In this document: positions 20,027 to 64,000 of the stretch, in pieces
Numbering within the stretch: position 1 is the stretch's first letter
Layout of the letters: every line of letters starts with the position of its first letter
NCBI GenBank assembly: GCA_027625915.1
Contig: JANTQA010000023.1
Coordinates: forward strand, 310,001-374,000
Origin: Anaeramoeba flamelloides
Taxonomy: Eukaryota; Metamonada; Anaeramoebidae
Direction: 5' to 3'
Length of the DNA: 64,000 bases
The notes under the pieces: model-generated
Told to the model about the DNA's origin: nothing
Seen by the model: only the letters and a program-made list of their open reading frames with translations
Databases searched by the model: none
Made by a program: the position numbers and the translations under genes

Positions 20027-20966
20027 TTAAGGGACTAGTCTATATTAAATTTTTTTAGGTAAAGTTAATAGAGATTTAGAATTTTTTTTACCAATTACTT
20101 AGATTTGAAATCAAAGTGAAAAACTTCTTAGTATATTAATGAAATATTGCTAAATTACATTCATTAAATTTAGTTATTGTTTTTATAGAAATAAAAAATT
20201 TTTCCATTTTTTCACTTTTTTGAAAGTTGCTTTTTTTCAACTTTTCACAAAAATACAAAAAATAAAAAAAAATATGATCAAGAAAGCAAAACCTTGTTAT
20301 GTTTGTGGAAGAAGTACAAAAAATAGTTTGAAAAATAATCCTGAAAGGTTTTTTTTGGATTTACATGAAAACATAGTTTGATTCGAAAAAAATATACAAT
20401 ATATGCTTTACTCTTAATAAAAGATTTTCTTTTTTTATATTGTACCATTCTTTTTTTTCATGAATCTACTTTTTCAGTTTACACTCTTTTCTTTTTATTG
20501 AATTTGAAGTGTTTTTAAGTCTTTCCAAATTATCATTCCAAAAGTTTTTGTCAGAGTCAAAAAAAATCAAAGAAAAGAATAAGAACTATTTTTTAAAAAA
20601 GTAATTATTGATAAAACAAATTGAGTTCTTTATAAAGTCAAGTTGGATGAACAGAAGTGAAGGAGAAAATATTCACCAGTTTTAAATTATTTTTTCGTTT
20701 TTAAAAATGAGAATAAATATTATTTTTGAGAAAATAATTAAATCCAAAATTAATCAAAAAATTCTCATCCTTTTAAGATCTTTTTTGAAAAAAAAATTTT
20801 TAAGAGTCACTTGTTTTGACAGAATTGTAAAATTTTAAAAAAACAAGAACTAAAAGTTCTAACATTGAAAAAACCTGTCTATTTTCAATTTTAAACATAT
20901 TTCAAGATAAGGATTCCTTATTTAGTAATTGGTCAAAAAAAAAATTAATAGAGACTAGTTCCTTAA
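20027..20966. mobile_element. TTAA-bounded element L
   Basis: About 940 bp. Left end TTAAGGGACTAGTCTATATT, right end reverse-complemented TTAAGGAACTAGTCTCTATT, both followed by a T-run. Contains a 35-codon frame with a CxxC motif at 20274-20381. The DNA on each side (about 19905-20026 and 20967-21095) is itself a direct repeat of about 125 bp. Confidence 0.7.
20274..20381 (+). CDS. Possible small ORF or first exon with CxxC motif
   Basis: ATG in an A-rich context, 35 codons, reading MIKKAKPCYVCGRSTKN and ending after LDLHENIV. The Cys-x2-Cys with a later His could bind zinc. A potential donor (AAAG before GTTTTT) lies near the end, so it may be a first exon. It sits inside a TTAA-bounded element and might be a transposase fragment. 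No family recognised. Confidence 0.25.
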   Translation: MIKKAKPCYVCGRSTKNSLKNNPERFFLDLHENIV

Positions 20967-21095
20967 CACAAAAAAAAATTGATATATTCAAACGAATTGA
21001 AAAATAAGTGAATTTCTTTCATAAGAATAGTTACAAATAATCAAAGTTTTGTGGTCACTTAAAAATTTTACTCAGAAATTTTGTTTTTCCCTTAA

Positions 21096-22277
21096 GACAA
21101 AATTCGATTTTTCAAAATAAAATTTTCTTAAAGATATTTGGGAATTAGTTAATTTTATCCTCAAAATTCAAAATCATTTTTTTTCTGCCAAAAAATAATT
21201 GAATTGTTATAAGGATTCTTGTGAATAAGACCAAACAATTTGTTAAAAAAATTTTTTTGCAAATTTTTTTCATTTTTTGAAAATTATTTTGTAATTTCTT
21301 TCATTTTATGAAAATCATAAAACAACTTTTTCAAAACATTAAAGAAAAAAAATTTTATCCTTTAGAGATCTCAATTTAATTGATAAAATGTAGTTAAGCT
21401 TCTACCAAATATTCATTTATTGAATCACCTATACTTCATTGTGTTTTATTGACTGAGATTTGAATTGAAATATTAATCAAAGAAAAAGAAACCAAATAAA
21501 AAATTTGCTCTCAAAATCAATACTTTCCAACATAAAAAGAAAAATTTGTTTTCCCATTTTCAAGAATAAACTTAATTGTTAAATAAATAATAGGTTACTT
21601 TTTTTCGTTTTAGATTGGAAACATTGAAATTTCGAATTTCAAAAAAGAGACTCAAATCAATAAATTGTTTAAATGAGGTTAACTCATCCATTTCATAAGT
21701 TCAAAACACACATTACAAAAAAAAAAATTTCCAGATCATGACAAAATTACATTTTATTTTCAAAAAGGAATACTCCCTTAAGTAGATTTTTGTATTGGGT
21801 TATTTCAGAACTTAGTGGTTTGGGTGTTAAAGTGAATTTTTGAACACTTCCTTTATAGACTATAAGATTTCAATTCTTCTTTCAAAGGAAATATTTTTTT
21901 TAAAATAATCCAGAAATATCAAGGATTATCATCTTGACAAAACTCGACAAAAATGGATCAAACTTTTAAAACCAATAATTCATTTCTGAAAAAAGCTTTA
22001 AAAGTAAGTTTGGTTTGTAGTAATCAGATTTTTACTGTATTTTTCAATTTCAAGATACGGTAAAATTTTTTTGAATTTGTTATTAAATTTACTTGAAGAT
22101 TTTTACAAGTTTACGAGTTCCTTAACAGAGTTTATAGTTTTTTCATGAATATCATTCGAATTTAAATAAAGAGATTTCCAAATGAGATTTCATTTTTTGA
22201 ATTTTTAGAATCTCAAAAAATTAAAAATTTAGAAATCAACACACCGAAAATGAAGCAATTGAAACCAATTTTTTTTA
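21096..22277. other. Intergenic AT-rich DNA, degenerate repeats only
   Basis: No gene. About 21585-21740 is a degenerate inverted relative of 10560-10700, the non-coding flank of the LRR duplication. Confidence 0.5.
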
Positions 22278-22739
22278 ACAGTCGAGAGAAAAATGTTGTT
22301 CAGAGAAAAATAGTTGGACTGTAATGTTAATTGGAAACATTACTGAAAATGATTTTTTTGTTTCCATCGTTTGTGAAATAAGTAAAGAAAATAACATTAA
22401 TCGACTTATTAGAATGAAAATTAATGTAATTCTACTTTTTCAAAAACTTATCTCTTATAATCTAAAGTAAGTTTAAAAATTACCATTTTCAGAATTAATA
22501 GTAAACTTTACTAAAACTTGGATTTTTGTTAAAAATAGCATGAAATACTTTAGTTATCAACCATTCAAATGAGTATTCTACACACACGACAGATTAATGA
22601 ACTTATAACACATTTAAACCTGGATTTATATAAAATTCACCAAGTTATCAATAGGATTTGAGCTTCAATTTTACTAATGTTCCCAATTAAAAATGGTTTT
22701 CAACAATTTTTCCGTGTCAAACATTTTTCTCTCAACAGT
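22278..22739. mobile_element. Foldback MITE, family B, copy 1
   Basis: About 460 bp, homologous along its length to 50406-50864. Termini carry GAGAGAAAAATGTTG and a second similar unit (CAGAGAAAAATAGTTGGAC), followed by an inner block AATTGGAAACATTACTGAAA. That inner block also occurs in family A. No ORF. Confidence 0.85.
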
Positions 22740-22811
22740 CAACATTTTCCACTTGTTCAAGTCCCTTTTTTCAAATAATTTTTCAAAACATTAAAAATTA
22801 TAATATTCTGA

Positions 22812-24040
22812 TTAAGGACGAAGTCTACAATTTATCAATTTGCCTCAACACAATTTGTTACAATTCCATTTGAATCCTGAAGTTCTGATCTTCAAAATAT
22901 TCACCAATTAGGATCAAAAAATCATTACAGGTCATATTTTTTAAATGAAAAATGAAATTTAAATTTTGAGATACATAAATCGAAGACCTTTTTAAGGAAG
23001 GTAAAAATGAAATTGAATAATAATCACGTTTTTTTAATATTAAAAACACCTTCTCAATCGAACAACTTTATATCTAAATGCTCGTATTGTCAATGATTTT
23101 TGATCATTGAGTTACTTTGAATTGTTAACTTTTATCCACAAACCATATAATCGTTCCAGCCCTACTGAGAAATATTATAAGACATAGAAATTGGTTCTCT
23201 ATTATAAAGTTGTGTTTTTAGAAATAGAGAATTCAATTTCGATGATAAGATAACAATTTCAACTTCTATTCCTTCCTTTGAATTTTTTTTTGTAAAAACC
23301 AATAACAAAAATTAAATTTTCTCAAAGAATTGACATCAACAGAAATTACAGAAATCACAGAAACTTGATTGTATTTTTCAATCTTTGTTTTTAAATTGAA
23401 AATACCTGTAATTTTAACAATTTTGGAAATTGAAGATCCACTTTAATGTAAGTATTTTTTAATGAATTTGTTTGTCAATTCCCAAAACCAAAGTAACCAA
23501 AGGAATCAAAAGAACAAAAAAAATGGATAACTTATTTTTAATCTTCTATTTTAAATTTTTTTTGGTTTCCGATGAACTTTAATAACCCTTTTATGGTTTG
23601 TTGTACATGGATAAAAGTTCAGAAAAGAAAATAACTTTCAATATATTATAAATTTTCAATGTAGGGTTGGAACTTCCTGTATCAATTATTGCAAAGGAGT
23701 TGTGATTTTGTATTATTTGGTTCTTTTTGTTTTTGCTTAAATTAAATCTTTCCGCCCTGATTAAGAGGAGAATATTCCCTCTCGAATTGTTTGTGGAACA
23801 ATATAATCCAGGCCCAAATATACTATACATTTTTTTGGTACTTTTTAGATAAATTGTTTTTTGTTTTGAAAGTTTCTCTCAAAACACAATTTGTTGTATC
23901 AAGATAAATTGGGTTGAGGTAAAGTTTTTGAAGAATTTTTTATGAAAGGATCTTTTTGAGAATTAATATTTGAAAAAATTAGTCATTTTTTTTTATTTTT
24001 TAAAAAAATCTGTCCCTACGACCTAAAAAAAAACGAAAAA
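22812..24040 (+). mobile_element. TTAA-type element F, copy 1
   Basis: Starts TTAAGGACGAAGTCTACAAT. It is homologous to the inverted copy at 37599-41131 and to 61263-62501. The 3' end is not clear, and the last 50-60 bases are assigned loosely. It lacks the E and H insertions seen in the second copy, so it shows the empty sites. Frames inside are short and not convincing. Confidence 0.7.
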
Positions 24041-24937
24041 TGGAAAACTGATTAAATACCTTCCATTAAAAAAATTAAAATAACTCAATGAAAAAATAAA
24101 AATAAATAAAGTTTCAAATTAACTTTTTCTTGAAAACATTTTTTGCCAAAATCATTGAATTCAAAAGTAAAATGATATATATATATATTTAGATGCAATA
24201 TCTTATTTTAACTGATTTACTAAAACAAATTCTAAATTCTGGTAATTTTATTTTTTCAAAAGGCACTAATTTGGTCTTCAAATGTTTTTTTATTTTTAAA
24301 TGGTAAAAGTTTAAAAAAAGTCAAACTATAAAAGATATACTCTCTAGAAAAGTATTCTAATTTAATATATTAACTTATTCTTTGATTTTAAAATTTTCTC
24401 AACCCCAATTTTTCAAAAAAAAAATTAAAAAGTGCACACTAATTTCAAAAAATATTTTAGATATTCAAAAGTTGAGAGTGTTTTTATTCTAAAAAAATTT
24501 ATACCAGTATTTAATTGAATAAAGTTAAGTTCTATATTTCGAAATATATTAATCAGAAAAAAATAGTGCTTAATTTTATTAAGGAAATATAATTCTTTCA
24601 AATAGATGAATATATGCATAGCTCGCAATTACATTTAAAAATAAATGATTGAAATGTTATCAATTTTTTTTATTTATTGAGAAAAAGGAGTAATTATTGA
24701 AAAAACTTATCAATTTTTAATATTTATTATTAAAAATAGTTCTGATTTTAATAAAATATTTATTTTTTCTCTGTAACAAAATGTTTACTAAGCATTTTAA
24801 AAAAAGTATAAAAATAGCAATCACAATAAAAAAAAATAATACAAGTATAATTTTATTGAAATATTTATTCCTTTTGTTTTTAATAAAATAAAAAAGTTTT
24901 TTAGATATTTTTAAAAATGTAAAATTTAAAAAAAACC

Positions 24938-24969
<32 letters not shown>

Positions 24970-25101
24970 TGGGGTTAAATTTTATTGAAATATTAATTCT
25001 TTTTATTTTAATAAAAAAATTTAATTTTTAAAATGAAATTTACTTTTTAATGTATTATAAAATTAAAAATTTAAATAGCAATTAAAGATTTTATTATAAA
25101 A
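24041..25101. other. 3' flank of CNOT1, AT-rich, no gene
   Basis: Downstream of the CNOT1 stop on the minus strand. Contains a long A-run at about 24937-24965 and otherwise featureless AT-rich DNA. Confidence 0.6.
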
Positions 25102-31828: not shown

Positions 31829-31866
<38 letters not shown>

Positions 31867-32644: not shown

Positions 32645-35600
32645 CTATTTATTTATGTTATGTAAAATGATCGTAGAATATGTATATATTAGTTGAATAA
32701 ATAATGAATTGTTTTTTTTTTTTTTTTTTTTATTTATTTTTTTTTATTAAATAGATTTAATGATTGATTGTATTAAGGAGTTTGTATAGAATCATAACAT
32801 TTTTGTATATCTATAGTAACATTAAAATCTGATGTCTACAAAATATTCTGTATTTTTATTTTTTTATTATTTTTAAAAATTTCCTTAATAACTTTAATAC
32901 AGCAATTCTTGTTCCAAAGGATTTTTTAAAATCCAAATTGCTTTTTTGAAATTAAGTCCCAATAGGGCTTGAATTTAAAAGTATATCAATTTTTAAAAAA
33001 ATCTTTGAAGAGATTGATTTATAGAGATAGGTCGATAATTTAATGGTTAGCCTTCATCCCCCGATTTATGAATAAAGAATATATTTCAATTTTTAATAAA
33101 ATTTATACTTTTTTCAGTTTGATCTGTTATCCAATTTAAAAAAATATTTTTTAACTGTTTTAATAAAAAAATCATAATTTAATAAATATTGCATTGATTG
33201 TTTTTTTATAAAATTTTAATTTATTTTATCAAATTCTTTAACTGGTTTATTTTATTTGGAATTTGATAATTTCTTTAATTTTATCTTGATCAAAAATTTT
33301 TCTAAAAGTTAATTGGAGTTTTTGAATTGTAATTAATTTTAATTCTTTTGAATATTTTATACTTTTTACCTTTTCCAAATTTCCCTTCTTAAGTTTTTTG
33401 GGTTCCTTAGGTTCCTTCGGTTCATCCTATTTTTGTATGTTTAGGTATTTGAAGGTGTAAAAGGTATAAATAATCATTATAAGAATTGGTTGACTTGTTT
33501 ATGATTAGATCTTAAACTAACTAGTTCATGATCAGATCTTTGAAGAGATTGAGCTGGACTTATGCAACCTAAGAAAACTGAACCTAACGAATGCGATCTG
33601 AAACCAATTAAAGTAAATCGAATTACACTTTCGTTCTATCTGTAGAGTTGTTACCTGGACTGAATTTTTGCTGTCGAGTCGGTATCTTGTACTGGGATTT
33701 TGCGAAAACAAGAAACTGGCAAACTTGCAAAAAAAAAAAAAAAGAAAAGTAACTAAAAAAAAAATAACACAAAAAAAAAAAATAAAAAAAAAGCAAAGCA
33801 ACTGAAAAGAAAATTTTGAAAACCAAATCTTATCCTTAAAAACTCAGAACTTTAAAGATTCAACCCTATTTATAAAGTTCTAAATCAAAATTTAATAAAG
33901 TAGTCTATTTCGTTTGATCTAAAGTTGTTCAAATATTTAGAACTCTTTATTGAAACAAATTATGCTGGCGCTCCAAAAAAAATCTACAAGACATAAAAGG
34001 AAATAACCACCAACCCATTCAACCCTTTTGTGCAAATAAAAAACTTTTAAATCAAGTTTTTTCTTTTTTTTACTATTATTTTTTGACTCTTTTTCATTCC
34101 TTGTTTTTCTTTCTCCTTTTCTTGTCTTTGTTTATAAATAATTTTTTCTTTTAATTTTTTACCTGAGCTATAATCTTGCCTAAATTATAGCTAGGATAAA
34201 AAACTCTAAATAAAAATTTAGAGTTTCATGAAACGCCGTCGGGTGCCGTCGAGTGCTGTAGAATTCAAAAGAATAGAGTAAAATCTTTAATTTTTCTTAA
34301 TTCTTTGGAATTCTGGAAAAGCTAACGGCAGTTGTTTTTTTTTAATTTAAAAGAATTGAGCAACTCGTTATATGTGTATTTATATATTTCATTTATATTT
34401 TTTTAGAGAGATTAAATCTTTTGAATTCCATTTGATTTTATTATTTATTCTTTGGTTAAGGGATTAGCGTCACCATAGATTTCTCGATAATCAAAGTATG
34501 TTGTAATTGGGTGTAAATGGTATTAGTTCACTATGGCTCAAATAGCTCTAAAAAATCTATTATAAATCTTATTGCACAATAAATTATTACATTTTTTACT
34601 AATGATCACAATTAAAAAAGTTTCATTTTGAAAATTTTTTTTTTAATTACTTTTCCAAATCTAAAAATAGAAACCCAAAATACAGTATTCTGGTATTTAA
34701 TAATTTAGATTTAGAACTTCCAAAAGTAAATATTTTTTCATTTTTGAATTTCAAAGATTAACTCAATAATCATCAACATAAAAGAACAAAAACTGATTAG
34801 TTTTGTTTGCTTTTTATAATGCTAATTGTAGTATCAATATATTTCCATGATTTGAGAAATAATTTGTCAAAAAAATTTGTTCGTTAATTATTTAATTTTA
34901 AAAAAAAAACGAATTTTTTAGTAACTAATCTACATTTCGCCACAAATTTAAGAAAGATATTTTATGACTTTGAAGTCTGAATATTGATAATTCAACCTTT
35001 AAATTTATGGCGAAATGCAGATTTTATTCTGAAATTGTTGAGGTTTTTACTAATACAATGGATCATTTTTAATTGCTGAGATCAGTAAATATTACTACTT
35101 GATTAATCGATTTTTTAGATACCTTTGAACCATGTAGCACGAATGTGATTATTTCCAATAACAACATACTTTGTTCCTAGGCTTCTCCTTGGTAGACGCT
35201 AATCCCTTAAATTTTATTAATTTTTCTAAATTTGGCAGGAGATAAAATACCTAATTTATTTTTGAATTTAAAATTCTTTTTATTTACTTTTAATTTATTT
35301 TTTAATTTATTTTTTAATTTATTTGTTTTTTTTATTTACTGAAATTATAATATTTTCAATTTTAAATTCTGTTTAGTAAATAAGAATTGTTGTATTTCAG
35401 TTTATTTTGAGTATTCCAGTAACACATGAATTAACCCAAGAATTTAAATAATTTAATGTTTTTTATTTCATAATTATATATTTCTAACCAATATGTCAAT
35501 TGGCTTATTATAAAAGATTTAAATAATCTAATTTTCTAAACTATTCTTCAGATAATTGTTTATTGAATAATTGTTTACAGTTGTTATATTTTTCTTTAGA

Positions 35601-36252
35601 TTTTTTTAAATTATAAACTATCTGTGAAATTTTATCTAAAAAAATACCCAAATATTATATTTTTTTTTAAATCTTCCAATGTAACTATTTTATCTTTATT
35701 AAGTTTTAATCTAAATTAAATCATAATTTCGAAAATTAAATTAATTAAAAAATCATTTGATATTTAAAATTTTGAGAAAAAGATTGTCAATTAAAAATTT
35801 AGATATAAAAAAAAAAAAAAAAAATTACAAACCTCATTGAGTCTGAAAAATTATTTTTTGATTTATTAATTATTGTAGTGAAAATTAATGGTGAATCAGA
35901 ATTTTCAGGAAATTGATTTTTGATTGTTGATTTTATTAATTTTTTGTATTTTTTTAATTTATTTTGTTTAAATAAATAATATAATAAATGCAGAATGTTT
36001 TCAGAAAGAAATAATAATTTGGTTGGTAAAAATTCTTCTTCTTCTTTCAAATATTCCAAACCTAAAATGTAATAATATTATAATTAAATAATAATAAAAG
36101 AATAAAAGGAAAATTTAACAATTGATTATTATTTTTTATTTTTATTAAAAAAAAAAAAAAAAAACTGTTAAACAAATATTGGTCTAACGTGGGTTATTAA
36201 AACAAATAAAAATTTGTGATTTTTAAAGTATTATACACACGTACATACATAC

Positions 36253-36293
<41 letters not shown>

Positions 36294-39200
36294 TTGTTTA
36301 TATCAAAGGTTAACAAAAAAACAAAAAATTTTTCAAAGATCAATCCACATTCTCCAAGAATAATTTATAAAACTGAAGCTAAACTTGACCAAGCCAGAAT
36401 CTCAATTTACAAAAAAAGATTTAGACTCAAAAAAAATTAGAAATTCTGAGTTTTCAACACATATCAAAAAAATTAAAATTTTACAAAAAAAAAAAAAAAG
36501 ACGATGAAAATATTGATTGGGAAATAGAAAATTTAAGATTATTAAATGTAAATTTAAATCAATTTTAGACAAAACTTAATAATTAAATAGTTATGGGTGG
36601 GGAAAAGTCAATCAGATTTAAAAATTATTAGATATAGTAATAATATCAACAAACGGCTGTGTTGTTTGTGCCGTGGAGTGTTGTAGAGTATCTAGGTTTT
36701 CTTGAGGTTTTTTCTATTTTATTTGTGAAGTGTTCTAGGTTTTTTTTTTTAATTTCTTAAATTGAAAAAAAAACTAGCAAAACTATTCCAGAATTCAAAA
36801 GAATTAAGAAAAATCAAAGATTTTACTTTATTCTTTTAAATCCTGGGAAATTTAACGGCGGTTTTCTTGAAATTTTACTGTTTAATTTGTGAAGTGTTCT
36901 AGGTTTTTTTTTACTTTTTGATATAAACCGAAAATTTTAATAAATTTTCGGTTTATTTCGAAAAGTAAAAAAAAAACTAACGAAAATCTATTGATTTTCC
37001 ATATTATTTTAGATTCTGGAAAAGCTAACGTAAATTTTTTTTAATTTGAGAAATAAAAAATTTTCTTGTTATTTCTCAATTCTTTTTATTTCTCAAATTA
37101 AAAGAAAGCCTAAAGACAAAAAATAATCTAAAATGGGTGGGTTCAACTTCCATTTTAAAATTTTGAAATTTCACCAATTATCGAAACAGATACTCTTTTG
37201 TTTATGATAAGAATAAATTAAAAACAAAATTATGCAACTTATGTAAAAATCATTCTAATCAGGAAATAATAGAAGATATCGATCATTTTCTATGGGACTG
37301 CCCATTCTCTGAAGAAAATCGGAAAATTTTGGATTCAAGGATTTAATCAAGATAAACAAAAAGAAATTTTAGAATAACAATATGTTTGATATTATTCAAA
37401 ATAAAGATTCATTATTTGTCTTATTGTTGTAATGAAAAAGAAAATTATGATTCTTTATTGAAATTTCTAAACAAAAATTTAGAAATTCGGGAAGTGCCGT
37501 AGAGTGTCGTCAAGTGCTTAACTTTTTCAAGATTCAAAAGAATAGAGAATAATCTTAGATTTTACTCAATTCTTTAGAATTCTGAAAAAACTTCACAGTT
37601 AAGAACTACGTTTGCAATTTAAATTTGATGCCACGTGTGATAAAAGAGGATTCTGAGGGCTCTTGAATCTCATAAATATTTATTCAGTGAAATCTAAGTA
37701 GTAAAAAATGGCATTTTTTGCATAATTTTGTTTGTCTTTGATTCTCTGATTTATGTGATTTATATCGTATCTCGAAATGACAAAGAAGGTTGGCAAAAAC
37801 GGTTATTTGAGAAAATTTCTTATTAGCTGAAAGTGAAAAACCTTAATACGATATTGGGGGTTTTCTTTTATTTATTTTTGATATGTGAGTTATGTTGAGA
37901 AGGTTTTCCATTTTCACCTAAAAGATCAATATGGAGAAAATTGAAAATTTTGGATGACTATTCCTTTGTTATTTTAAAAACAAAGAGATTTTTGAAGAAT
38001 GACAACGGAAATTGGTTTGGTATTGTATTAAATCCACTAAAATTCCCATTTTCCAAAAATAGAAAGATCATTTTTTCTCAAACTGACACCATATTTTTTT
38101 TTTTAAAAAAAAAAAACTGACTAATTTTTTCAAATTTAATTCCCAAGATCCTTTCATGAAAAATTCTTCAAAACCTTTATCACAAACCCCAACCCGATTT
38201 CTCTTGAATATAAAAAATCGTGTTTTGATAGAAACGATCCAAACAAAAAAAAATTTATCTAAAAAGTACCAAAAAAAATGTCAGTATGTTTGGCATGGAT
38301 TATGTTGTTACACAAACAATTCGAGAGAGACACTCTCCCCTAGTCATGGAGGGAAGATTTAATTCAGGGAAAAACAAAAAGAACCAAAAAAAAATAAGAA
38401 AAAATCACATCGCCTTTGTAATAATTAATATAGTAGTTCTATCACTACCATGAAAATTTATAACACCCTGAAATTGATATTCATTTCTGAATTTTTATTT
38501 TGTACAACAAACCTTAAAAGAGTTATTAAAGTTCATCATAAACTTAACTAAAAATTCAAAATTTTCCACACACTTAAAATAGATCAAACAATCACAATAA
38601 TACAATTTCATTCAAATTAGAAATAATTTTCATTATTGTAAAATATGAAAATCATTTTTTCATCTTTTAGTTTTTTTTGTTTTCCTTTCATTTTTTGAAT
38701 CACCGAACTTGTTTCCTGAGATCAAATTTTTTTTTTCAACAATTGGTATTAGGTTAAAGTTGAGTTTTTCAAAATAGAAGAACTCAGATAAAATTAGTTG
38801 ATAGTATCTAACCATTTGATCGATCACCAATATTCCTAATAGAATTTCAACAAATTTAACAAGAATTTTTTTTTTTTACTCTCTCCAAAATTTTAAGCAC
38901 GCTGATAATTTATTTGTATTGATAATTATTCATTTTTTGTTTTGTGAGTATTGTAATTTATTAAACAAGTGTTAAAGTTTCAATTAGTAAATAATTTTAA
39001 TTTTGTATTTCTTATAGATTTGATTAATTAAGATTTTTTTGGGTGTTTGAAATTGCATTTTGGTGTGTTAAAATTTTTGAATTGGGGTTTATAAAATTTA
39101 TAATACAAGATTAAAAATAAGTTATCCATTTTTTGCTTTTGGAAATTGACAAACAAATTCATTAATATACTTACATTAGTGTGGATCTTCAATTTCCAAA

Positions 39201-42200
39201 ATTGTTAAAATCTCAAGTTTTTACAATTAAAAAACAAAGATCGAAAAATGCTTTCAAGTTTCCATGATTTCTATGATTTCTTTTCTTGAGAAAATTTAAT
39301 TTTTGTCTTGGCTTTTTATAAAAAAAAAAAAACTCGAATGAAGTAAGAGAAGTTGAAATTGTTATCTTATGATAGGATAGAAATAGAATTTTCTTTTTCA
39401 AAAAACAAAATTTTATAATAGACAACCAATTTCTATGTCTTATAAATTTTAAGGTAGGGCTGGAACTACTGGATGGTTTGTGGAGACAATGTAACAATTC
39501 AAAGTAACTCAATGATCAAAAATTATTGACAATACGATCATTTAGATTTAAAGTTGTTGTTATTTATCGAGAAGGTGTTTTTAAGGTTAAAAAATAGTGA
39601 TTTTTTTTTTTTCATTTTCACGTTCCTTAAGGATTCTTGAGAATTTTATTCTCTGTGGGTACTGTAATATAATATCACAAGTAAAATACAACATTTAATT
39701 GATTATATCTTAAAGGAAAGCCAAAATATTCCTATTTTAGGATTTTTGAGGAAAATTAAAAAAAACAGTTTTTGATCAAAAACTTGTATGACTTTTCAAA
39801 CAAAACAAGGTAAATTTAAAATCGATTTTTTTTACCCCTTGAAAAACTTTCACTCCGGATTAAATTGATGTATGTTTATCCCCTTACCTTTTATTTGATA
39901 ATACTTGAAAATAAAGTGGAGGGACCGTACTCCAGAGACTTTTGGATTTTTAATTTTTGGTTGGAAATTATTAAAATTTTGTAAAATTTTAAAATTTGGA
40001 AATGATCTTGACTCTTTTATATTTTCATCCACAAATTTGGTTTTAATGATTAAAATGGTTAAAAGAGTTTTTTATTTTTTTTTATTTTTAAATTTTTAAA
40101 TATTTTAATTTGACAAAAAAATTGTTTTTAATTTTGTGAAACAAGAAACGAGATTTTTAAACTAACTTCAAAAAAGGCTGAAAACCTTTTCTTTTCAAAT
40201 TTCTTTGGTTTGGAAAAAAAAAAGAAACCATAAATCATTTGCGAAACTCCATTATCAAATTCAAAAGATCCCTTGATGTGGAAAACAAAAACTTTTTTAT
40301 TACCAATCTGAACAGCACAGCCCATTGAAATTTTAGATGGGAAGAGAAAAAGAATTCGAAAGTTTGGTATTTTGAATGGTATCACATACCAATAATAGTC
40401 ACTTTCAATGACACTCTCATAATCGGCTGGAAATAAAGAAACCCAAACTACCTTCCTATTGCAAACAAGCTGATCTCTTCACTTATCACATTTACTAAAA
40501 TTGAGAGAAGTCACAGCACTAACCCAAACATACAAAATCCCCAAAACAAAGGTGAAAAGGAAACAGAATGTGTTTATTGATCCCAAAGATTGCAAAATTG
40601 AAAAAGTTCAGAAACCATTTCCCTACACTTTCATTTTGAAACACCAACGAAACAGAAATCTAAACCAAAATAAATAAATAACAAAGAATCTGGATTTAGA
40701 CCCACTAAAATGGGAAGAAAGGTAATGGATTCTTAATTTTGGAGAATCGTTGGAGAGAGCTGTGGTTAAAATGACAAAGATGTTAAAATTTATCAAAAAA
40801 TGGGTTTACCTTTCTCAATTTTTTTGAAAAAAAAATCTTATTTTTTCGAGTTAAAAAGATCTATTTACTCAACCGGATTTTAAGTCAATAAATATGTTTT
40901 TACACACCAAACTAGTATTCACAGATCATGAAATTCGGAGAATCCTTAACAAGGTGTTCGAGTTCGAGTATCTCAAAATTTCTTAGTAAATTTTTCAGAA
41001 AAAAAAATGAAACAAAATGATTTTTGGATCCAAATTGGAGAATATTTCAAAGATCATTGACTTTACATTTTAAATGAAATTGGAACAAATTGTGTTGAGA
41101 CAAATTAGTAAATTGTAAATGTAGTCCTTAAGCAGTTGTAACAAAATTAGAGTATTTTACACTTGAGATTTTTTTTTTTTGATTTGCACAAAGATCTTTG
41201 CAAAAATAGCAAAGTTATATCCTAATATTTTTTGTTTGACCTTAGTAAATAATTTGAGAATTTAAAGACAAAAACGATAAGAATAGAGAATCAAATCAGT
41301 TATTTTGGGTGTTCTATTTGTTGAAAAATAAAGGGATCAAAATTTTCATTCGACTTTTCAAAAATTGTGACAGAGATCAATCATCAGGTCAAATATAAAT
41401 TGTTTAATTCTGTAAACCAGTTTAAAGTATTATGATTTTTCCTTTTTTGAGAATTGTGTCTTTTAATGATTTTATTTTAATACTTTTTTTCTTTCTTTTT
41501 TTGGAGAAAAAACAATGAAAATTTTATTCCTTTTGTTTTGCAATTAACAGTAATTTTACAGACCGAATATTGAAAAAAACATTCTCATTTTTAACTATTC
41601 TTTCCTTGGCGCTCAGAAGGAAACTAAAACGAAAAATAAGAATTTCTCTGAATTAAAAAAGTGACTGAACACAAATTGTAGTTTGAGGTTTTACAAATTC
41701 AAAAAAAAACTTGCTCGTTGTTTGTTGGTGGTTGCAACAAAGTAGTAAAAAAAAAAAAACATAATTGGTGAAAAAAACAACATACCCTGTTTCGAGAGAT
41801 TTTTATTTTGGGATTGTGTTAAAGCAATTGCAATTATCATTCTTTGAGTCTCATCCATTTCAATTTTTTTGGAAAGTGTTTTTACGAGGTTTTTGATCCC
41901 TGATGGTAAGTCCTCGATTGAATTACAAATAAGCGAAATACAATTTTGTTTTTCAGAAATAAAGTTCAGCTCTTGCTGCAGTAAATAAATACAAATTTTT
42001 TCATGTCCTGTTGGCTCGCTTATTGATGTGAAATCAAGACTTGAAAAGAGCGCTTTTAAAAAATAACTATAAACTTTATTCCCATAGTTTTCTTCCAACT
42101 GTTTGTGTTTTTGAGTATTCCAAAAAAAAATTGAAAAAAATCAGCATTTAGTTTTTCTTTAATGGAGGAATGTTTTTCAAAAAAATTGCTTTGTTTTTTT

Positions 42201-47470: not shown

Positions 47471-47671
47471 TACAGTCAGTTTCACTTTTAAGGCACAAAC
47501 TTTCAACCAAATTTAAGGCACAAAAAAATCTCAAATTAAGACACAATATTTCGAATTTTAATTTTTACAATTTATTTTTACTAGAATCTGGATTTTGTGC
47601 TTTAATTTGAGATTTTTTTTATGCCTTAAATTCCGTTGAAAGTTTGTGCCTTAAAAGTGAAACTGACTGTA
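47471..47671. mobile_element. TA-flanked palindromic MITE, family C, copy 4 (best preserved)
   Basis: 201 bp from TA to TA. Left end CAGTCAGTTTCACTTTTAAG, right end reverse-complemented CAGTCAGTTTCACTTTTAAG; arms extend for about 75 bp. CAGT ends and a TA target fit Tc1/mariner-type MITEs. Confidence 0.88.
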
Positions 47672-50864: not shown

Positions 50865-53800
50865 AATTTGATTTTTTGGAAAAGTCAAATGCAAATTTAT
50901 CTTTTAAGATTTTAATATTTACTGTTGGTTGCAAAATAAATAGAACAAAGTTTTCATTTAGCTTTAGATGTAAAAAGTTATAAAATCCAAAAAACATTTA
51001 AATATTTTAATCAATAAAATCAGTCTAAATTATTCATTTCTATTTGAAAATTGGGAGCATATTGGATGATTTATTGTAATTTTATTAAGGTGTTTTTTTT
51101 TTGCTATAGTTGAATGAAAATATAGATCTTTTTATTTTACAATTAACAGTACAGTATTTTAAATAACCCGTGTTGACTTAAATAAATAATTATTTTCAAA
51201 CTTTTACTATGGGTTTTTCAAAAATGTGTTTTTGAGTGTTGTTTTTTAAATTTTTTCAGTTGTTTTCTTTTTTTATCTGTTGTTGAAATGAAAAATTTTC
51301 AATAGTGTGTTAATTTTTAAAAAGGAAGTATATCTTGATAATACGATTGTAATTCTCAAAGTCATAAAAGAAATTTTTATTCAAAGTTAACTAAAATATT
51401 ATCTCTACAGATATTGATTGAAAAATTGAAAGATCTTGTAATAGATCAATGAAAATTGATCTTTTAAGAGATTTAATTTCCTCTCATTATTAAACTTGTT
51501 GAAAATGAATTGATTTATAAATAATTTGGTTATTGGGTATGTTCTTGTTGAATTTTAATCAGATAAAATATTGGTTAATTAAATTTTTGATTCAATATGA
51601 AATATTCTTTCATTGAGGATTCTTATCACCTCAATATAAGCAAAAAAAAACATATAAATAAAGTGATCAATTGCAAAATATGATTTGAAGACCAATAACT
51701 AAAGGAAAAAAGGTAAAATGAAATGATCTTTTTGTTTATTTATTTTGCAAAAAACTTTGAAAAAATAATCTCATTTTTGATTCATGTTGAGATACCACTA
51801 AAAAAGGTTTTCAGAAACTCTTTTTATCCCTTTTTTTTTTTTTTTTTGTATTTACTCAAATTGAAAGATTTGTTTGTTGTCAATTTAGGTGTTGTTTAGT
51901 TTAATTTTGGTTCAATTAGATCTCTTTTATCAGGAGATTGGACTAAAAAGTTGTAGAAAAACACTTGGATAATATGATCTATTGTACATTTGGTTTGATT
52001 TGAAAGTATAAGGTTAAACTGGACTGTATTTTTCGTAAAACACAAAATAAATTCGAAAAACCACAGTTAAAAAAAAAATAAACACATTAAAAAAAAAAAA
52101 AAAACAACACTTATTTCAAAAAACAGCACAAATAATTTTCAAAATCACAAAGAAGAACTTCGACACGGGTTATTTAACCAACTGTAAATGGAAATTTTGA
52201 TCTTTATATTTTACAGTTTGTTAAATAATATGTGTTGACTTCAATAAATATTTTTTTTCAACTTTTTATTGCTATTTTGGAATTTTTTGGTTATTAATTG
52301 TTGTTTTGAAAAATAGAGTTGATTTCCGAGAAATTTTTACAATTCAAAAAATCAAAAAAATTGATAAATTTGTGAAAAATTGAAACTATTCCATTTTATA
52401 ACAAATATCAAGGAATTGATCTTCATATTTGATTTGATATGATGTCTAAATTGGATATCAAATTAGATATGGTATACAACAAGAAGAAAGAAAAAACGGA
52501 AAGTTTTGTTTTAGGAAATGGTTTTTATTTTCTTCTTCAAATTGATATGAATCTTGTAGATTGATTAATAAATCTGAAATAAACAATATAAAGTTTAATT
52601 TGTTTTGAATTGGATTTTCTTTTTATTTAGTTTTAAAAAGTCATAAGAAGAAAGTCAATCAAATATTATTTTTTTTTAGATGTTTTTTATGTAATTTTTT
52701 CTTTTAAAAATATTCATTATATCTTAATGTATTTATATCACATTATAATTTTACTATTTTTTAGATTACTTAATCTTCAAAGGTTGATTTTGATACCAAA
52801 TTTCATTTTCTCCCAAATATATGACTTTTTTTTTTTTTTTCAATTTTTTCAGAGTGTAATTTTGTATCAAACTAAACCTGTCTTTTTTTAAATAATATTT
52901 GTTCAAAGAAAATCTATTTTCTGGCTAATAATCTTGTCAACATTACAACTAGGGTAAAAGGTTCTAAATTAATTTTATTTTTAGTAATCACAATAAAATT
53001 TTGCTGAATTATATCTGTTTTGGTATTCTAATAATATTAATGTTTTATCATATAGAATTTATGTACAGTGATTATAAACGAATTGTTTGTTTAATTATTT
53101 TTGTCAAAATTCAGTTCTGAAAATTAGATCATTTGTTATTTAATTATGGATTGAGGAAAACCAAAATTTCATAATTTTTTCAGGAGTATAATTCCTAAAA
53201 AAAAAATAATCCTATCATACACTTTTTGAAGTTTTCTGTAGATTAATTACTATGAAAATAATTTTTTTTAGAAAATTAAATCATTAACTTTGATATTTTT
53301 TTTTTTAAAAATCATTTCCATATATTGGGAAGATAACAATGCTACAACTAATTTCAGAAAAAGAAAACAAAAATAATAAATCTTGATATTTTTATGTTAA
53401 TAATATTGAAGTAAAATTTGGAATTAAAAAAATTAGTATTATTTTTGAAGATTGAAGCTTCTAAATAAGAAAGATTTAATACTGGTGTAATATTATTATG
53501 ATTTTTCATTTTTGAGATTTAGAAAAGGAATAAAAAAAAAAATTCCAAAAAGAAAAATTTTTAATTGTGATCATTACTAAAATAATCTAAAAATTGATAA
53601 TTCTTTAATATTTAATATAGATTTTTGAGTATGTTCGAACTAATTTAGCTTTAATATCATTTACTTTCAATTAAAACATAGTTAATATTTTAAGTGATCT
53701 AAGGTGATGGCAATCACTTGGGTGAAGCATCATAAAATTTATTATTACCATTGATGGATCAAAAAAGGATTTAAAGTTAAAAAAAAAAATGAGATATAAT

Positions 53801-55119
53801 TTTTAAGTATATTAAAGAAGATGGTGAATAATAATAAAAAAGATGGTTTACCATTTATTGCAAAATAAATGGTACAAAATATTCATTCATCTTTTAAAAA
53901 AATTTTTTTAAAAACCTAAAAAAATTTCAATTTTTTAATTCCATAAATCAGTTTAAAATCTTAATTTTCTCTTAGAATTGAAGGGCTTTGATCATTTGTT
54001 TTAATTTTTGGGTTTGTGATTATTTTGGAAAGATAAATGAAAATTTTGATCTTTTTATTTTGCAAAAAATATTAAGTGTAGACCCATTAAAAGGTCAAAA
54101 AAATATAGGAATCAAAAAATAACATTTTTAAAAATTGTTATGAATCAATAATAAAAATTAAATTATACTCAACATGCAATATAAGATCAAGTTATAATAA
54201 TAATCAAAAAAAAAAGATAGGTTTTTTTTTTAGAAAAAACCACCAAAAAGTGAAACCTAATTTCTAATTAGAATGATTGAGAATAAAAATTTTGTTAATT
54301 AAAGGGAAATGTTTTGAATTGTCACTCCTATACACATTTTGAGATATTAAAGATTTTTTTTTTCATTTTTTTCATTTTTCTTAAAGTCTTTATTACCTGA
54401 AAGGATTATTCCAAGAACCTAACTCTACTAAATTTGGAAAGTTAAAAAATCACCAAAAATTAGATTAAATTAAATTGAATTTGGTCTGAAAGAAAACAAT
54501 TTGTTTTAAATTGAAAAAATTGATCCATTTGAAAATATTGCTGTTATGTGAAAAATAAAAAGAGCAAAATTTTCAGTCAACTTTCCAAAAGAAACACACC
54601 TATCAAAGAATTAAAATATATCAAGAAATTCCCTGACTCTAAGTGAAATTAATAATTTAACCTTGTTTTTTGATTAAAAAAATCGAAAGGTTCATGATTT
54701 CAAAATCTCTTTGTCAAAAGCTGAATGAAAAATTTTGTTCCATTTATTATACAACAAATAGTCATCAAAAAAAGGTTAATGTTTTTTTTTTATATTGTTT
54801 TGGAAATTTAGAATACCTTTTAAACTTTTTTTGAATTCGAATTCTAATAAAGATCAAATCAATTTTTAAATCGATTTTTTTTTTGTAAAGTTTTACAGTA
54901 ATTTATTGTAGTGTTTCAACCAAAAGAATTAAAATTTTTCACAAGATATATTATCGAGATTTTCAAGTAATTTCTGGAGTTGGGAATAAATTCAACGTAA
55001 GTGACGGGACCCTTAACTTTTAGAAATTCAAATTCATTTTTTCTTTTCTTGTTGGTTTTGACAAGCTTTTTTTTTGTGACTTCAATAGTTATCTTATTAT
55101 TTTCCTTGATTTTGCTGCA
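50865..55119. other. Intergenic AT-rich DNA between RPA2 and the kinase
   Basis: No gene. Several degenerate repeats share a GCAAAATAAATNGNACAAA-like block and a TTTATTTTACAATTAACAG-like block (about 50930-51155, 53850-54090, 54540-54780, also 41310-41580). A minus frame at 54916-55359 is antisense to the kinase exon. Confidence 0.5.
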
Positions 55120-55704
55120 ATGACACAAAGTATTATCAAACAAGGGTGGGTAACAAAGCAAGGGGGCTCTTTCAAGTCTTGGAAAAAAAGGCTCTTTGTT
55201 TTGTATCCAACCAAAATGGCATATTTTACAAACAAAAAGAATTTTCAAAAGCGAAATGAAAAAGGGCAAATCCCGATCCAAGGCGCAAGAGCTGCAGAAT
55301 ACACCTGGGAAAAAACAAAGCGTTCTCACAAAGGCAAATTCTATTTCCAAATTTATCACGACACAGGAAGGGTGTACATTGTGTACTCAACATCAGAAAT
55401 CGATCGGAAAGACTGGATCACCAAAATCAACTCTGCGTCTGAAAAGTTCCGAAAACAAAACAAACAAAAATATGGTGTTGGCGACATCCAATTCCTCGAA
55501 GAGATCGGAAGAGGTGCATTTGGGTCTGTCTCAAAGGCACTTTATTCTTCAACAAAAGAAATCGTTGCAATTAAAAAAGTTCCTATTGACGAAAACGATG
55601 ATGAAATTGAAGAGCTTGTAAAAGAAATCGCAATCATGAAAAATTTAATAAACCCAAACATAGTTCGATATTATGACACCTACTTTATGGAATCTCATTT
55701 ATGG
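55120..55704 (+). CDS. Kinase exon 1 (PH domain and N-lobe)
   Basis: 195 codons from the ATG in AATG context to TGG; donor GTAAAT at 55705. GC content is higher than in the surrounding DNA, as expected for conserved coding sequence. Confidence 0.93.
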
Positions 55705-58700: not shown

Positions 58701-61700
58701 GATCTTTTATTACAATCAACAGACAAATAAAAATTGATATTGTAAAAGAATTACAAATAAAAAAATGATACAGTAGTTTTAAAAAAATGAGAACTAATAG
58801 TTTTAAAAAGTGTTACTAATCCCATTTGATCCACTCTTTTAAGAAGCCTGATTCACACCTTTTAAAACCATCCACTCCTGTTCTTTTAAAACCACCGTAA
58901 CAAAAAACTAAAATAATAATTATTTTTTTAATTTTGATAATTGTAAAGATACTTGATAATTAAAATCGACTTTGATAATTTCAATAAAGTTTATAAATTC
59001 CAAGATTAATTTATCCTGCTTTACAAGAAAATAATCCCCTGATAATATATAATTCCATTTGTGTGTTATATCCTATCGAATGAAAACCAATTTTGAGTGA
59101 TAATGTTCCAATTTCTTAAAAAAAAAAAAAAAAATTATATCAAAATGTTTAATATTACGAATATTTACAATTAAAACTTGAACAAAATTTTAATAAAAAA
59201 ACATAAAAAACAATAATAAAAAAATCATAAAAATTATTAATGAAATTTAATTTTTGATTTGAATTTTTTGGTGAAGAAAAAAACCTCGAAAAAAATACCT
59301 TTTTGCTGATGTGTTGCTATATTCTTTCTGAATATTATCAACCACATTGTCACCTTTAAAAATTCCACAAAATCCACAAATTGTATAAAACAATAAAGAA
59401 ATATAAAAGCTATTTGAGAAGATATGAAACCTGCGAATGAAAGCGTAGCGAAAATCTGCGAAAAGGATAATTATTTTTTTAAAAATATTGTTGTGTGTCC
59501 TTCTAAGATTGAAAAAATGTATATACAATGTTGTTTCACACTAATATAAACACATTTTTTCAATCTTAGAAGGACACCAAACAACCATTTAAAAAAAATA
59601 ATTATCCTTCTCGCAGATTTTCACTTTGCTTTTATTCGCATTTTTCAAAAGCTTCTAGCTATTTCCAAAAAATAGGTGTAAATTTATTTTCAAATATCTT
59701 TATTAAACTAAATCTTATAAAAACTATATTTTAATATCTAAAATCATTATCAATAATTGATTGATTCTTTATAACAATTTAATTTGTTAGTTAGTATGGC
59801 ATTACTCAAATAAAAATTATCAAAATTTCTGATCTTGATTTTGTTATGATATTTTTTAGTGGTGTGAAAATTGGTGATTATTGTTTTCTTTATTATCGGA
59901 AAAAAATTTTTTTCCGAAGAGTTTTAATCTCGACAAAATTTCCAATAGAACAAAAAAGATTTTTAATTGTATTTTATTGTTTAAAAAAATCGTTTCTGTA
60001 CTTACCATATTGCCTGTTTTTTATTGAAATTGGTAGTACATTGCTTTAACCAAAAAAACTGTTATTTTTTTAATCATTTTAAATTTGGAAATATTTTAAT
60101 GAACATATTTTGAAATCAACACAATATTTATTGGTTGATTAAATCAGTATTAATATATCACTTAATTTTGTATTACAAATTTAAGAATAGAACCACTAAA
60201 AAAGAGGATTTTTTAGATAATGTAAAAAAAAATTCCCCACTTTTTTGGAAATACTTTATATATATATTCTTAATTCTTATTGAGTTAATTAAATGTTATT
60301 CATATTTTGGGGTGGGTATAAAACAAAAAAAGAGGAAAAGAAAAAATTTTTTTTTCAAAAATACAAATCAAAATCATTGGTATTAATAACTGTAAAAAAA
60401 TTTTGATTTTTCATTGTTAGGGAAATTAAAAAATTTTAAAACAAATAAATAAAATATTTTGAAGCTAATTTTTTTAATGAACCAATTTTTGTATAAAATA
60501 AGAATTTTGAAAATATCACAATCATTTTTTTAAAATCACTCTTTCATAAATTTTCATTGAAAAAAAAAATAATAATAATACATAATTATTATAACAGGTT
60601 AAATACTCAATTATAAATAATTTCTTAATGTGATCATTCAAAAAAATGATAATAAAAAAAGCAAACAAAAATACACAAATAAAAAAACGAGTTAGTTAGT
60701 TGGCTTGTTATTTTCCCTTTTATAGTTTTTTTATTTAACAAAAAACTAAAGAGAGAGAAAGAAAATAAAAATAAAAAACATCTTTTCATTAAAAAAATCT
60801 TTATTTACTTAAGGAATGGAATACAAAATATTCAAATTTATAATTTATTCATTTTGTTATTTTATTAATCTCAATAAATATTCTAATCATAATTTCTTTT
60901 TTAAAAAATTCTCAATAACGTAAACTTTGTTTCTGTCAAAGGGAACCTAAAAATATTTTACGATATCAATTATTTTTGATAATTGACCCTTAAAGAGTAA
61001 ATAAGATATAAATACAATAAATTTGATAATTATTCTGAATTTGATAAAATCCATAATTATTAATTGATTTCCTTTTTACAAAAATACAAAAATCCAAAAA
61101 AAAATGACATATAAGTGAATTATTTATCTTTATTTTAAAAAAAAAATTTTAAAAAAATATTTTTTAATACGTTCTGGAAATATTTCAATACGTGCCCATC
61201 GACAGTTTTATAGATATCTTTTGAAAATCTTTTTATCACAATTTTATAAAATTACTCTACTTTTGAACTACGTTGGCAATTTACCAATTTGTTTCAAGCC
61301 CTTTTGATCAATCCTAATGTAAATTGTGAAGTCAGACTCAAAATATTGTCCAATTAGCATCAAAATTGCATTTTTTGTATTTTTTAAATGAAAAATTCAC
61401 AAGAAATTTTTAGATAAGTAAACTCAAAACACCCTTGTTAAGAAACGTGAAAATGATATTGAAAAATAATCTAGAGTTTCTTGATTCAAAAAATGCCAAT
61501 CAATTCAAACATTCTCAAAAAAAAAACTATAACTTTAAAAGATCGCATTTTCTATGTTTTTTTTTCAATTGGGTTACTTGAATTATTTCCAATGTCTTAA
61601 GAAATCATGACAATTCACCAAAGAAGTTGTAATTTTTCTTAATTTTTTTGTGTTTGGTTCTTTTGGTTTTTTTCTAAAATTGAAGCTACCAACAACCTTT

Positions 61701-64000
61701 TCAATTGAATAGTATTTACTCTATTTTGGTATTTTGAACAGAATCTCATTACCAAATACCCAAAACATTTGGTTTATTTTCTTTTCGTTTGACGATTATT
61801 TTATTGTTGAAATTGTTTCTCTCAAAACATAATTGTTCTTTTCAATACAAATTGGGATTAGGGTTTTTTGGGAAAGGTTTTTATGGAATTTTACGAAAGG
61901 ATCTAAATGAAAATTAAATTTAAAAAATTTCAAAGTTTTTTTTTAATAAAAAAAATTTTTTTTGTTTCAATAAGAAAAATGATCTTTTCTTTTTTAGGAA
62001 ATGAAGGATTTTGGTGGATTCTATTCAATACGAAAAGAATTTGTCAGTCTTTTGGCAAATATTAACCTAAAGAGAAAATAATAAAAGAAAAATTCCAAAA
62101 TTTTTTGCCTTTTTTCTTAATTTTGACCTTTTAGGCGAAAATGACAAACCCTCTTAACTTAACTCACATATCAAAAATTACTAATAGAAACTTCTCAGCA
62201 ATGTCTCAAGGTTTATCACTTTCACCTAAGAATAAATTTTCACAAAAAGTTGTTTTTTTCTCAACCTTCTTTTTCATTTTGAGAAATCACAGAAATCACA
62301 GAAATCACAGAAATCACAGAAATCACAGAAATCACAGAAACTAGTACGGAGGAAAGAAACAAGTCAAATTAATTTCGTAAAAATATATCATTTTTATTTC
62401 TTTGATCTCACTAGAAGAATTATTTGTAAGAATTACCAACCACCAAACCATGATAAAAAAACATAATACTTTTAAATTTCAATTACAAACGTAGTCCTTA
62501 AGGATGTAAGTTCCAAATGAATTCTTCAGATACATTACAAAAACCATCTTTTTATATTGGTTAAGGTGAATATAATCTTTTATCCACAGATTAAAATACA
62601 TTATTTTTGCAAAAAACACAATTTTATTTTTTTCAACCTTTCTTTTTTTTTTTATTCTACTCCTGTTAATCTCACCCATCAACTCCTTAAAAATAAACCT
62701 AAGAAGTGATTTCTTTTTCATTTGGGCCAGTTATTAATTAGTTTGTTATTAATAAACCCAGTAAAATTCAATAATTTCCCCATAAATCAATACTATTCTT
62801 AATTACTAATCTGTAGTTAAGTGGGTATTTCCAATAGAACAAAAAATAAAAACCCAAAGCAAAAACTTTATTTTTTACAAAAAAAAAATTTATTTTAATT
62901 TGTGGATAAAAGATTGTATCCACCTTAACCATAATGAAAGGATTACATTTGTAATGTATCTGAATAATTCATTTGTAACTTAGCCACTTAAAAATAATAT
63001 TTAACCATTTCATAAAAAGAAAAAAAAAAAAACAAATCAATTATTTTTTATTTTTAAGAAATCAAAATAAAAATCAAAATAAAAATAAACTTTCTGTAAA
63101 ATTGTTGATAATCTCTTATAAAATGTTTGTCTCCAAAAAAAAAAAAAAAAAAAATTAAAATCTTTATCCTTGAAAAATAAATTTTAAATATTATTCAAAA
63201 TATATTTACCAATCAAAACAACCAAACTTGAAATTTTATTTTATAAAATTCATAATAATTTCTAAATTCTTAAACTATCATTGTTTTTGAAATGAAATAA
63301 TAATTTAAAAAAAAAGACTATTGGAATTTAACCTTTTCCCAAATTCAGATTTTTATTGAGTAAAATAAATAATATTGATGATTTTATTAAATTATCTTTT
63401 TCCTATAACTTGTAAAAAAAAAAAGGTAACTAAAAGCTCATCAAATAATAAATGAAAATTGAGCAAACTAATAAAATATATCTCTCTATATTTATATATA
63501 CACACACATGCATTCATAATTAATATCCATACATAAACAAAAAAAAACAATAACAAAAAAAAAAAAAAACAAATAAATTAATAGATTGTCATGGAGTACT
63601 GTGGAGGGGGATCATTGGATGATATTATTAAATTAACAAAAACAACTTTAAATGAAGATCAAATTATTTCTGTTGTGAAATCTGTACTTGAAGGCTTGGC
63701 ATATTTAAATAAAAAAAAAAAAATGCATCGTGATATCAAGGCAGGAAACATCTTGATGAGTGACGAATGCGTTGCAAAGCTGACAGACTTTGGTGTCTCT
63801 GCACAGGTAACTGAATCAAAGAAAAGGAACACTGTCATTGGAACGCCATATTGGATGCCACCTGAAATGATACAAGAAGTGGGATATGGATTAAATGGTG
63901 ATATTTGGTCTCTAGGGATCACGATTTTGGAAATGGCAGAAGGAGAGCCACCACTGACAAACATTCACCCAATGAGAGCAATTTTTTTAATCCCAAATAG
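55120..64000 (+). CDS. PH-domain STE20/Hippo-type serine/threonine kinase (5' part, runs off the window)
   Basis: Exons 55120-55704 and 63585-64000, joined in phase 0, give 333 complete codons before the window ends. Residues about 5-112 form a pleckstrin-homology domain (GWVTKQGGSFKSWKKRLFVL ... DRKDWITKINSA), expected to bind phosphoinositides or proteins at membranes. The kinase domain starts at about 121: glycine loop GRGAFGSV (130-137), VAIK Lys152, helix C Glu169, HRD with Asp245, DFG 263-265, and GTPYWMPPE 281-289. RNTVIGTPYW is the MST/Hippo-type activation loop; Thr278 corresponds to the MST autophosphorylation site. All catalytic residues are present. ESHLW joins IVMEYCGGGS exactly as in germinal-centre kinases. 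The remaining C-lobe and any C-terminal region lie beyond the window. Confidence 0.93.
56156..56347 (+). repeat. Dispersed repeat I, copy 2
   Basis: Same order of blocks as 42655-42868, and again directly followed by a foldback element. Confidence 0.7.
56350..56766. mobile_element. Foldback element K
   Basis: About 415 bp that is almost wholly an inverted repeat (arms about 190 bp). Left ATATGCAAAAAGTGATGTCT, right reverse-complemented ATATGTGCAAAAAGTGATGT; arms continue through TTAATATTT, AAACTATAAAA and AATGAAAGAA blocks. One arm carries a GC-richer stretch (CTCCCTTTGGGGCGCATAGG). No ORF. Confidence 0.85.
56767..58229. other. Intron DNA without recognised element
   Basis: Nothing beyond AT-rich low-complexity sequence. 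Confidence 0.5.
58230..58658. mobile_element. Foldback MITE, family A, copy 3
   Basis: More decayed, but with the same internal series (ACTTCAAATAATAA, ATTGATCAATCAAAGAAA) and inner terminal block TTTTTAATTG...AACACTT on both arms. Same orientation as copy 1. Confidence 0.75.
59405..59663. mobile_element. Large hairpin / foldback element P
   Basis: Arms of about 110 bp (ATCTGCGAAAAGGATAATTA and TCCTTCTAAGATTGAAAAAA against their complements) around a loop of about 30 bp at 59519-59550. GC-richer blocks (CTGCGAATGAAAGCGTAGCG) lie in the outer arm. No ORF; single copy in this window. Confidence 0.8.
61263..62501 (+). mobile_element. TTAA-type element F, copy 3
   Basis: Starts GAACTACGTTGGCAATTTAC (left TTAA mutated) and ends with CAAACGTAGTCC followed by TTAA. 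Homologous in blocks to copies 1 and 2. It shows the unoccupied TTAA used by element H in copy 2. Confidence 0.75.
62279..62341 (+). repeat. 9-bp tandem repeat (AGAAATCAC)n inside F
   Basis: Seven units here, two to three at 23340-23365 in F copy 1, and about two inverted at 39255-39280 in F copy 2. Confidence 0.9.
62498..62991. mobile_element. TTAA-bounded element G
   Basis: 494 bp with arms of about 95 bp. Left TTAAGGATGTAAGTTCCAAA, right reverse-complemented TTAAGTGGCTAAGTTACAAA, both followed by TTCAGATACATTAC. It shares its left TTAA with the right end of F copy 3. No ORF. Confidence 0.82.
63585..64000 (+). CDS. Kinase exon 2 (hinge to C-lobe, partial)
   Basis: Acceptor ATTAATAG, then ATT GTC ATG GAG. 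138 codons plus two bases to the window end, with HRD, DFG and the activation loop. The last residues (HPMRAIFLIPN) match the helix-G region of MST kinases. Confidence 0.93.
   Translation, partial: MVMEYCGGGSLDDIIKLTKTTLNEDQIISVVKSVLEGLAYLNKKKKMHRDIKAGNILMSDECVAKLTDFGVSAQVTESKKRNTVIGTPYWMPPEMIQEVGYGLNGDIWSLGITILEMAEGEPPLTNIHPMRAIFLIPN

Follow-up and report, generated by a model that had tools for sequence, protein, structure and literature searches.

A 64,000-nucleotide stretch of the metamonad Anaeramoeba flamelloides (G000:C24:310001-374000, contig JANTQA010000023.1; the window hereafter) contains a clan of TTAA-bounded elements whose first bases are mostly TTAAGG, including five, F, G, H, L and M, that a preliminary description of this DNA had singled out. 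The clan probably comprises families of cut-and-paste DNA transposons served by diversified Kolobok-like DDE transposases. The transposases themselves look like new, divergent members of the known Kolobok superfamily, a kinship judged from combined sequence features rather than from a tree. The published Anaeramoeba genomes are A+T-rich (PMC11550330, as far as its available text goes); the assembly used here has 254 Mb in 76 contigs, and all counts from genome searches are lower bounds.

The central observation is a 4,224-bp element on C48 (KOL-1), which ends in TTAAGAACTACG and TTAAGGACTACGT, the latter being the very terminus of F, and which encodes a DDE transposase. The preliminary description had guessed at a divergent TTAA-specific transposase and proposed looking genome-wide for a long copy with an open reading frame, and this element answers to both. 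When its 9.9-kb surroundings (locus L107) were examined for TTAA-bounded inverted pairs, the best-scoring of all pairs spanning the gene was L107:3127-7350 (TTAAGAACTACGTTTC / TTAAGGACTACGTGTC). A second F-like end at L107:7832 had a lower score, and since the homology of locus L104 and of the window copies ends at 7350, the right end of the element is settled. It is identical to the F terminus at 13/13 positions, and the empty-site alignment at L104 fits a TTAA target. The coding region is split over two frames in this copy.

The transposase query gave at least 62 genome matches (68 of 73 candidates scored), with best frames 31-100% identical to it; among the matches scored, the full query is open in the C48 copy only. 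Conserved in the group are D, D, DxxH, H-H-C-H and E, with a single non-D residue, C, among members at position D137. The H-H-C-H motif (H192, H197, C200, H202) lies between DxxH and E and is predicted to bind zinc. The Pfam model PF20700, which we take to be Kolobok-related, gave no genome match at E <= 0.001 and one at E <= 10 (C48:5956541-5956819, E 0.0014), within a 654-codon open frame. The solved folds nearest to the predicted structure are Hermes and ISCth4, at approximately 10% identity, and most further rows of the VIA-align structure list are retroviral integrase cores. Nothing relevant came from a sequence search of the PDB or from an NCBIfam search with four proteins.

According to the available text of PMC9587614, Kolobok is defined, in contrast to piggyBac, by TTAA duplications with 5'-RR/YY-3' ends, and in all lineages but Kolobok1 it carries a zinc finger between DxxH and E with a near-invariant third Cys. 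The A. flamelloides group has the DDE triad with DxxH between the second D and E, and its H-H-C-H motif sits where that zinc finger is expected. TTAA stands at both ends of the C48 element and of the window element 37599-41131, and the far end of F is TTTT. The terminal dinucleotides are GA/GG in the C48 element and 37599-41131 and GG in F, 22812-24008, L, M, H and the second lineage (KOL-2); the exceptions are the right end of G (GT) and one end at locus L109 (TG).

In the window, the KOL-1 type is represented by derivatives, which are listed here with the coding remnants that two of them hold and with G, the neighbour of F:

22812..24008, minus strand: KOL-1 derivative by alignment (180/241 columns), terminating in TTAAGGACGAAGTC at 22812; no left end located
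23685..23921, minus strand: transposase N-terminal coding remnant (tblastn with P0015, 35/80 identical, E 2e-9)
37599..41131, plus strand: KOL-1 deletion derivative by alignment, holding H; TTAA at both ends
38156..38368, plus strand: transposase N-terminal coding remnant (tblastn with P0004, 30/72 identical, E 8e-9; with P0015, E 7e-9)
61261..62501, minus strand: F, 1.24 kb, KOL-1 deletion derivative by alignment; TTAA at 62498-62501, with TTTT at the opposite end
62498..62991, plus strand: G, 494 bp, inverted arms of 159 nt (76%), left TTAA in common with F

The terminus of F, TTAAGGACTACGT, has one exact window occurrence, on the minus strand at 62489-62501. F aligns with the left end of the C48 element over 112/155 columns and with its right end over 179/239 (blastn 70% over 670 columns and 74% over 222); for 37599-41131 the corresponding figures are 147/209 and 144/185 (70% over 775 and 77% over 188), and 22812-24008 is 78-81% identical to 37599-41131 over 765 and 478 columns. 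Judged from these alignments, the three are internally deleted relatives of the C48 element. The interiors, described earlier as unrelated-looking, are thus only partly so: F, 22812-24008 and 37599-41131 have ends and interior in common. Likewise, the statement that no transposase is visible in the window stands for an intact one but not for the two N-terminal remnants, neither of which was matched with P0003 as the tblastn query. The terminus of G, TTAAGGATGTAAG, also occurs exactly once, on the plus strand at 62498, and its right end is TTAAGTGG. G is low-copy, and the TTAAGG pair inside it (62561/62928) is present as a single copy; one diverged relative turned up at locus L033 (71.5% over 281 bp).

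A second lineage, KOL-2, is marked by diverged transposase loci on C57 (41 and 31% identity) and C34 (39 and 32%), which were read past the coding region in small stretches. Only one end of each element is known, and no left end turned up for C57 within the sequence read. The two share 97% identity over 1,017 columns, with the agreement ending at TTAA, where C57 has TTAAGGTTTACAATCCCTG and C34 reads TTAATG. The C57-type terminus also follows TTAA in loci L069, L033 and L076. In L069 it bounds both ends of a 466-bp element, 43 bp of which are 88% identical to the C57 end. One old element of the window has ends of this kind:

6425..10503, plus strand: old element with KOL-2-type ends (TTAAGATTTACAATCTCTG / TTAATGTTTCCGATTACTG) and inverted arms; one end 85% identical to the C57 end over 40 bp, no transposase coding match inside

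At least two diverged transposase lineages with TTAAGG ends therefore exist, which supplies what the variety of interiors in the clan needs.

The remaining elements are short and recur across the genome:

19036..19050, plus strand: solo L-type terminus, partner not found
20027..20966, plus strand: L, 940 bp, non-autonomous, bounded by TTAA on both sides, 96% identical to the consensus of 14 rows
20274..20381, plus strand: L relic reading frame, starting MIKKAKPCYVCGRS and terminating at a TGA common to most copies
34456..35210, plus strand: M, 755 bp, non-autonomous, bounded by TTAA on both sides
39627..40949, plus strand: H, 1323 bp, non-autonomous, bounded by TTAA on both sides, lying inside 37599-41131

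The exact L terminus TTAAGGGACTAGTCT stands in the window at 19036 and 20027 (plus strand), with the right end at 20966 differing by one mismatch; genome-wide it occurs 795+809 times, against 1+0 for a reversed-pattern control. The M terminus TTAAGGGATTAGCGTC, at 34456 (plus) and 35195-35210 (minus), occurs 484+487 times (reversed control 0+0), and the H terminus TTAAGGATTCT, at 39627 (plus) and 40939-40949 (minus), 21+19 times (0+0). Identity to consensus is 91.5-96.6% in the 14 L rows, of which two carry inserts and one was trimmed manually, and 94.7-98.7% in 12 H copies (the window copy and 11 others); 17 other M copies were aligned. The H copies at loci L082 and L090 have common flanks and were counted as one event. 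In all three families the copies agree up to TTAA and diverge beyond it, giving sharp ends in unrelated flanks. Copies were initially picked by patterns that contained TTAA, and L copies retrieved with a protein query are therefore the fairer test of the TTAA flanks claimed in the preliminary description. TTAA was confirmed at 14/17 of their ends, and the other three are one base off (ATAA, GTAA, TTGA). Additional ends, partly TTAA-selected, carry TTAA in 28/29 cases for L, 13/13 for M and 9/9 for H.

The L relic frame has a stop within the query in 142/150 scored copies (150 of 859 candidates scored) and none in 8/150; the longest open frame has 107 codons, and no coding copy was found among those scored. 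The longer copies at loci L014, L023, L052 and L062 were set aside, their extra length coming from inserts, and locus L026 proved to hold two elements. A full-sequence H search gave at least 61 matches (40 of 810 candidates scored) with no coding copy among them, nor was one met when five H-related loci were read further inward. The H interior contains a 116-codon frame (40131-40478, minus strand, 31% GC), open in several H copies, for which no Pfam match was found at E <= 0.1. L is flanked by two similar direct copies of a sequence of about 120 bp (19905-20022 and 20970-21090). M is nested in another element (34260-36844) with 62-nt inverted arms (90%), and an old M relative at 53237-53719 on the minus strand (71% over 492 columns) shows no clear TTAAGG end.

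Across both strands of the window, TTAAGG occurs 66 times, compared with a mean of 34.2 (range 20-48) in 30 third-order Markov sequences, and 18 TTAA-bounded pairs of terminal inverted repeats (TIRs) exceed a fixed score, compared with at most one in any of 10 second-order Markov sequences. The TTAAGGCAC pairs are not members of the clan, as the arms of the host repeats extend to TACAGTCAGTTTCAC, past TTAA; 51159-52177, whose arms also continue beyond TTAA, was dropped. As regards the clan proposed in the preliminary description, L, M and H bear it out genome-wide, but F and G are real though old and imperfect.

Judging from the target, the ends and the enzyme type, a Kolobok-type transposase would pair the ends, cut at the TTAA/GG border and insert the element at another TTAA, which would thereby be duplicated. 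Internally deleted copies would arise afterwards, as is seen for the F type and as may hold for L, M, H and G, which could be non-autonomous families driven by enzymes of the C48 type or of sister lineages. As every insertion creates a further TTAA, elements can abut on a single one, and such pairs were observed for F/G, H/M (loci L083 and L103) and KOL-2/L, the last being the 466-bp element of L069.

Several observations weigh against the clan itself or against this interpretation. In the TIR scan, other boundary tetramers also gave pairs (AATT 12, TAAT 3, AAAT 2, ATTA 1, TTTA 0, TAAA 0), and TATA and ATAT gave 67 and 88, mostly simple repeats. Of the 18 TTAA pairs, several, the TTAAGGCAC ones among them, are internal to another repeat with arms extending past TTAA. 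TTAAGG alone is therefore no reliable mark, and with AATT yielding 12 pairs, the scan by itself proves little; it is the copies elsewhere that do. The divergence of C57 and C34 (loci L108 and L109) past TTAA rests on five bases of C34. Sequence models support the Kolobok assignment weakly: the PF20700 match scores 24.3 bits against a cut-off of 26.5 (31.6 bits when neighbours are included), and hmmscan of the 654-codon frame lists no PF20700 at E <= 1. THAP was not matched at E <= 1 in the 18 members scanned, nor found in a genome search in which the control gave no match either. The fold model is middling (predicted local distance difference test, pLDDT, 64.8; predicted template modelling score, pTM, 0.52) with low TM-scores (0.21), and all 37 relatives in the profile search come from A. 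flamelloides.

In addition, the genome searches found no transposase bounded by L, M or H termini, the interiors of these elements are unrelated to the C48 element, and the L relic frame has no visible match to known transposase N-termini. These points favour a different transposase family as the driver of L, M and H, with TTAA and GG shared with the Kolobok-like elements through convergence; this is rather unlikely, given the same target and the similar first bases (GGGACTA, GGGATTA and GGATTCT versus GGACTAC), and the transposase group is diverse enough for several end types. That the group is instead a separate C/DxxH superfamily which reached TTAA independently of Kolobok would suit its lack of a named-family sequence match at normal thresholds and its restriction to one species, but is improbable, as every Kolobok feature tested except THAP is present, including H-H-C-H in the expected place.

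That piggyBac transposases with unusual ends drive the clan is very hard to credit: piggyBac targets TTAA and its model PF13843 has 68 genome matches, some with long open frames, but the copies with read ends adjoin ATAT and have other termini, and the element of F encodes a non-piggyBac enzyme. ATAT lies on both sides of six copies (L037, L039, L042 and L043 of one clade, L046 of a second and L038 of a third), a fourth clade (L045, L093, L094, L095, L098) has GGCATAT on one side in 5/5 copies, and L048 has GTAT on one side; the clades of L096, L099 and L100 lie outside the set whose ends were read. The earlier suggestion of a divergent TTAA-specific transposase, to be compared with piggyBac, was right in that the GG-type ends are not those of ordinary piggyBac, but the enzyme carries a Kolobok signature, and none of the 18 members matched the piggyBac model (DDE_Tnp_1_7) at E <= 1.

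Beyond the preferred reading of a clan served by Kolobok-like enzymes, it may tentatively be suggested that the group branched off deeply, next to the described Kolobok lineages or basal to them, and radiated in Anaeramoeba into several lineages that each have their own TTAAGG ends and short satellites; on this view it holds the TTAA niche while piggyBac of the same genome has turned to ATAT. The findings offer a probable source for a large class of short repeats of a metamonad whose genome, according to the available text of PMC11550330, is almost six times larger than that of its congener with only twice as many genes. They also add a transposase group missed by ordinary Pfam scans, and TTAA- and ATAT-users in one genome would allow asking what determines target choice. 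No paper on Anaeramoeba transposable elements was found in the literature searched, and none of the papers listed mentions Kolobok, which does not prove absence from print.

Other features were also observed. An abundant inverted repeat beginning TACAGTCAGTTTCACTTTTAAGGCACAAAC (window 47471-47671, 1087-1272, 8616-8709, 11533-11719 and many other genome loci) has TTAAGG internally, not terminally, and a portion of it is translated within gene model P0016. A reverse-transcriptase fragment at 16583-16870 on the plus strand (RVT_1, E 2.8e-12) weakly matches enzymes of R2 and group II introns in the PDB. Similar stretches at about 795-6150 and 11250-15550, approximately 10.3-10.5 kb apart and 89-99% identical in pieces, contain leucine-rich-repeat genes. 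Elsewhere in this eukaryotic genome, an MCM4-like gene (L028:1266-5021; MCM, E 1.8e-94) contains an intein splicing domain (PF14890, E 7.5e-12).

Among known systems, Kolobok as described in the available text of PMC9587614 resembles the A. flamelloides group in its TTAA target, 5'-RR ends, DDE triad with DxxH and zinc-finger motif before E. The group differs in having no THAP match and no clear PF20700 match, in its own N-terminal Cys/His motifs and in being found in one metamonad species only; THAP is usual in Xenopus Kolobok (PMC6004289), and the available portion of PMC9587614 does not state it as a criterion. The Xenopus T2 miniature inverted-repeat transposable elements (T2-MITEs), assigned to Kolobok from target and ends, are likewise non-autonomous and situated at TTAA with a conserved purine-rich terminal motif, but they have AGGRR after TTAA instead of GG(G)A[CT]T, and their interiors are unrelated (PMC6004289, available text). 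piggyBac has the TTAA target in common with the clan, but differs in enzyme and ends, and its A. flamelloides copies with read ends adjoin ATAT. hAT (Hermes) and IS256/MuDR (ISCth4) provide the nearest solved folds and share DxxH; the target duplications of these two groups are 8-9 bp long.
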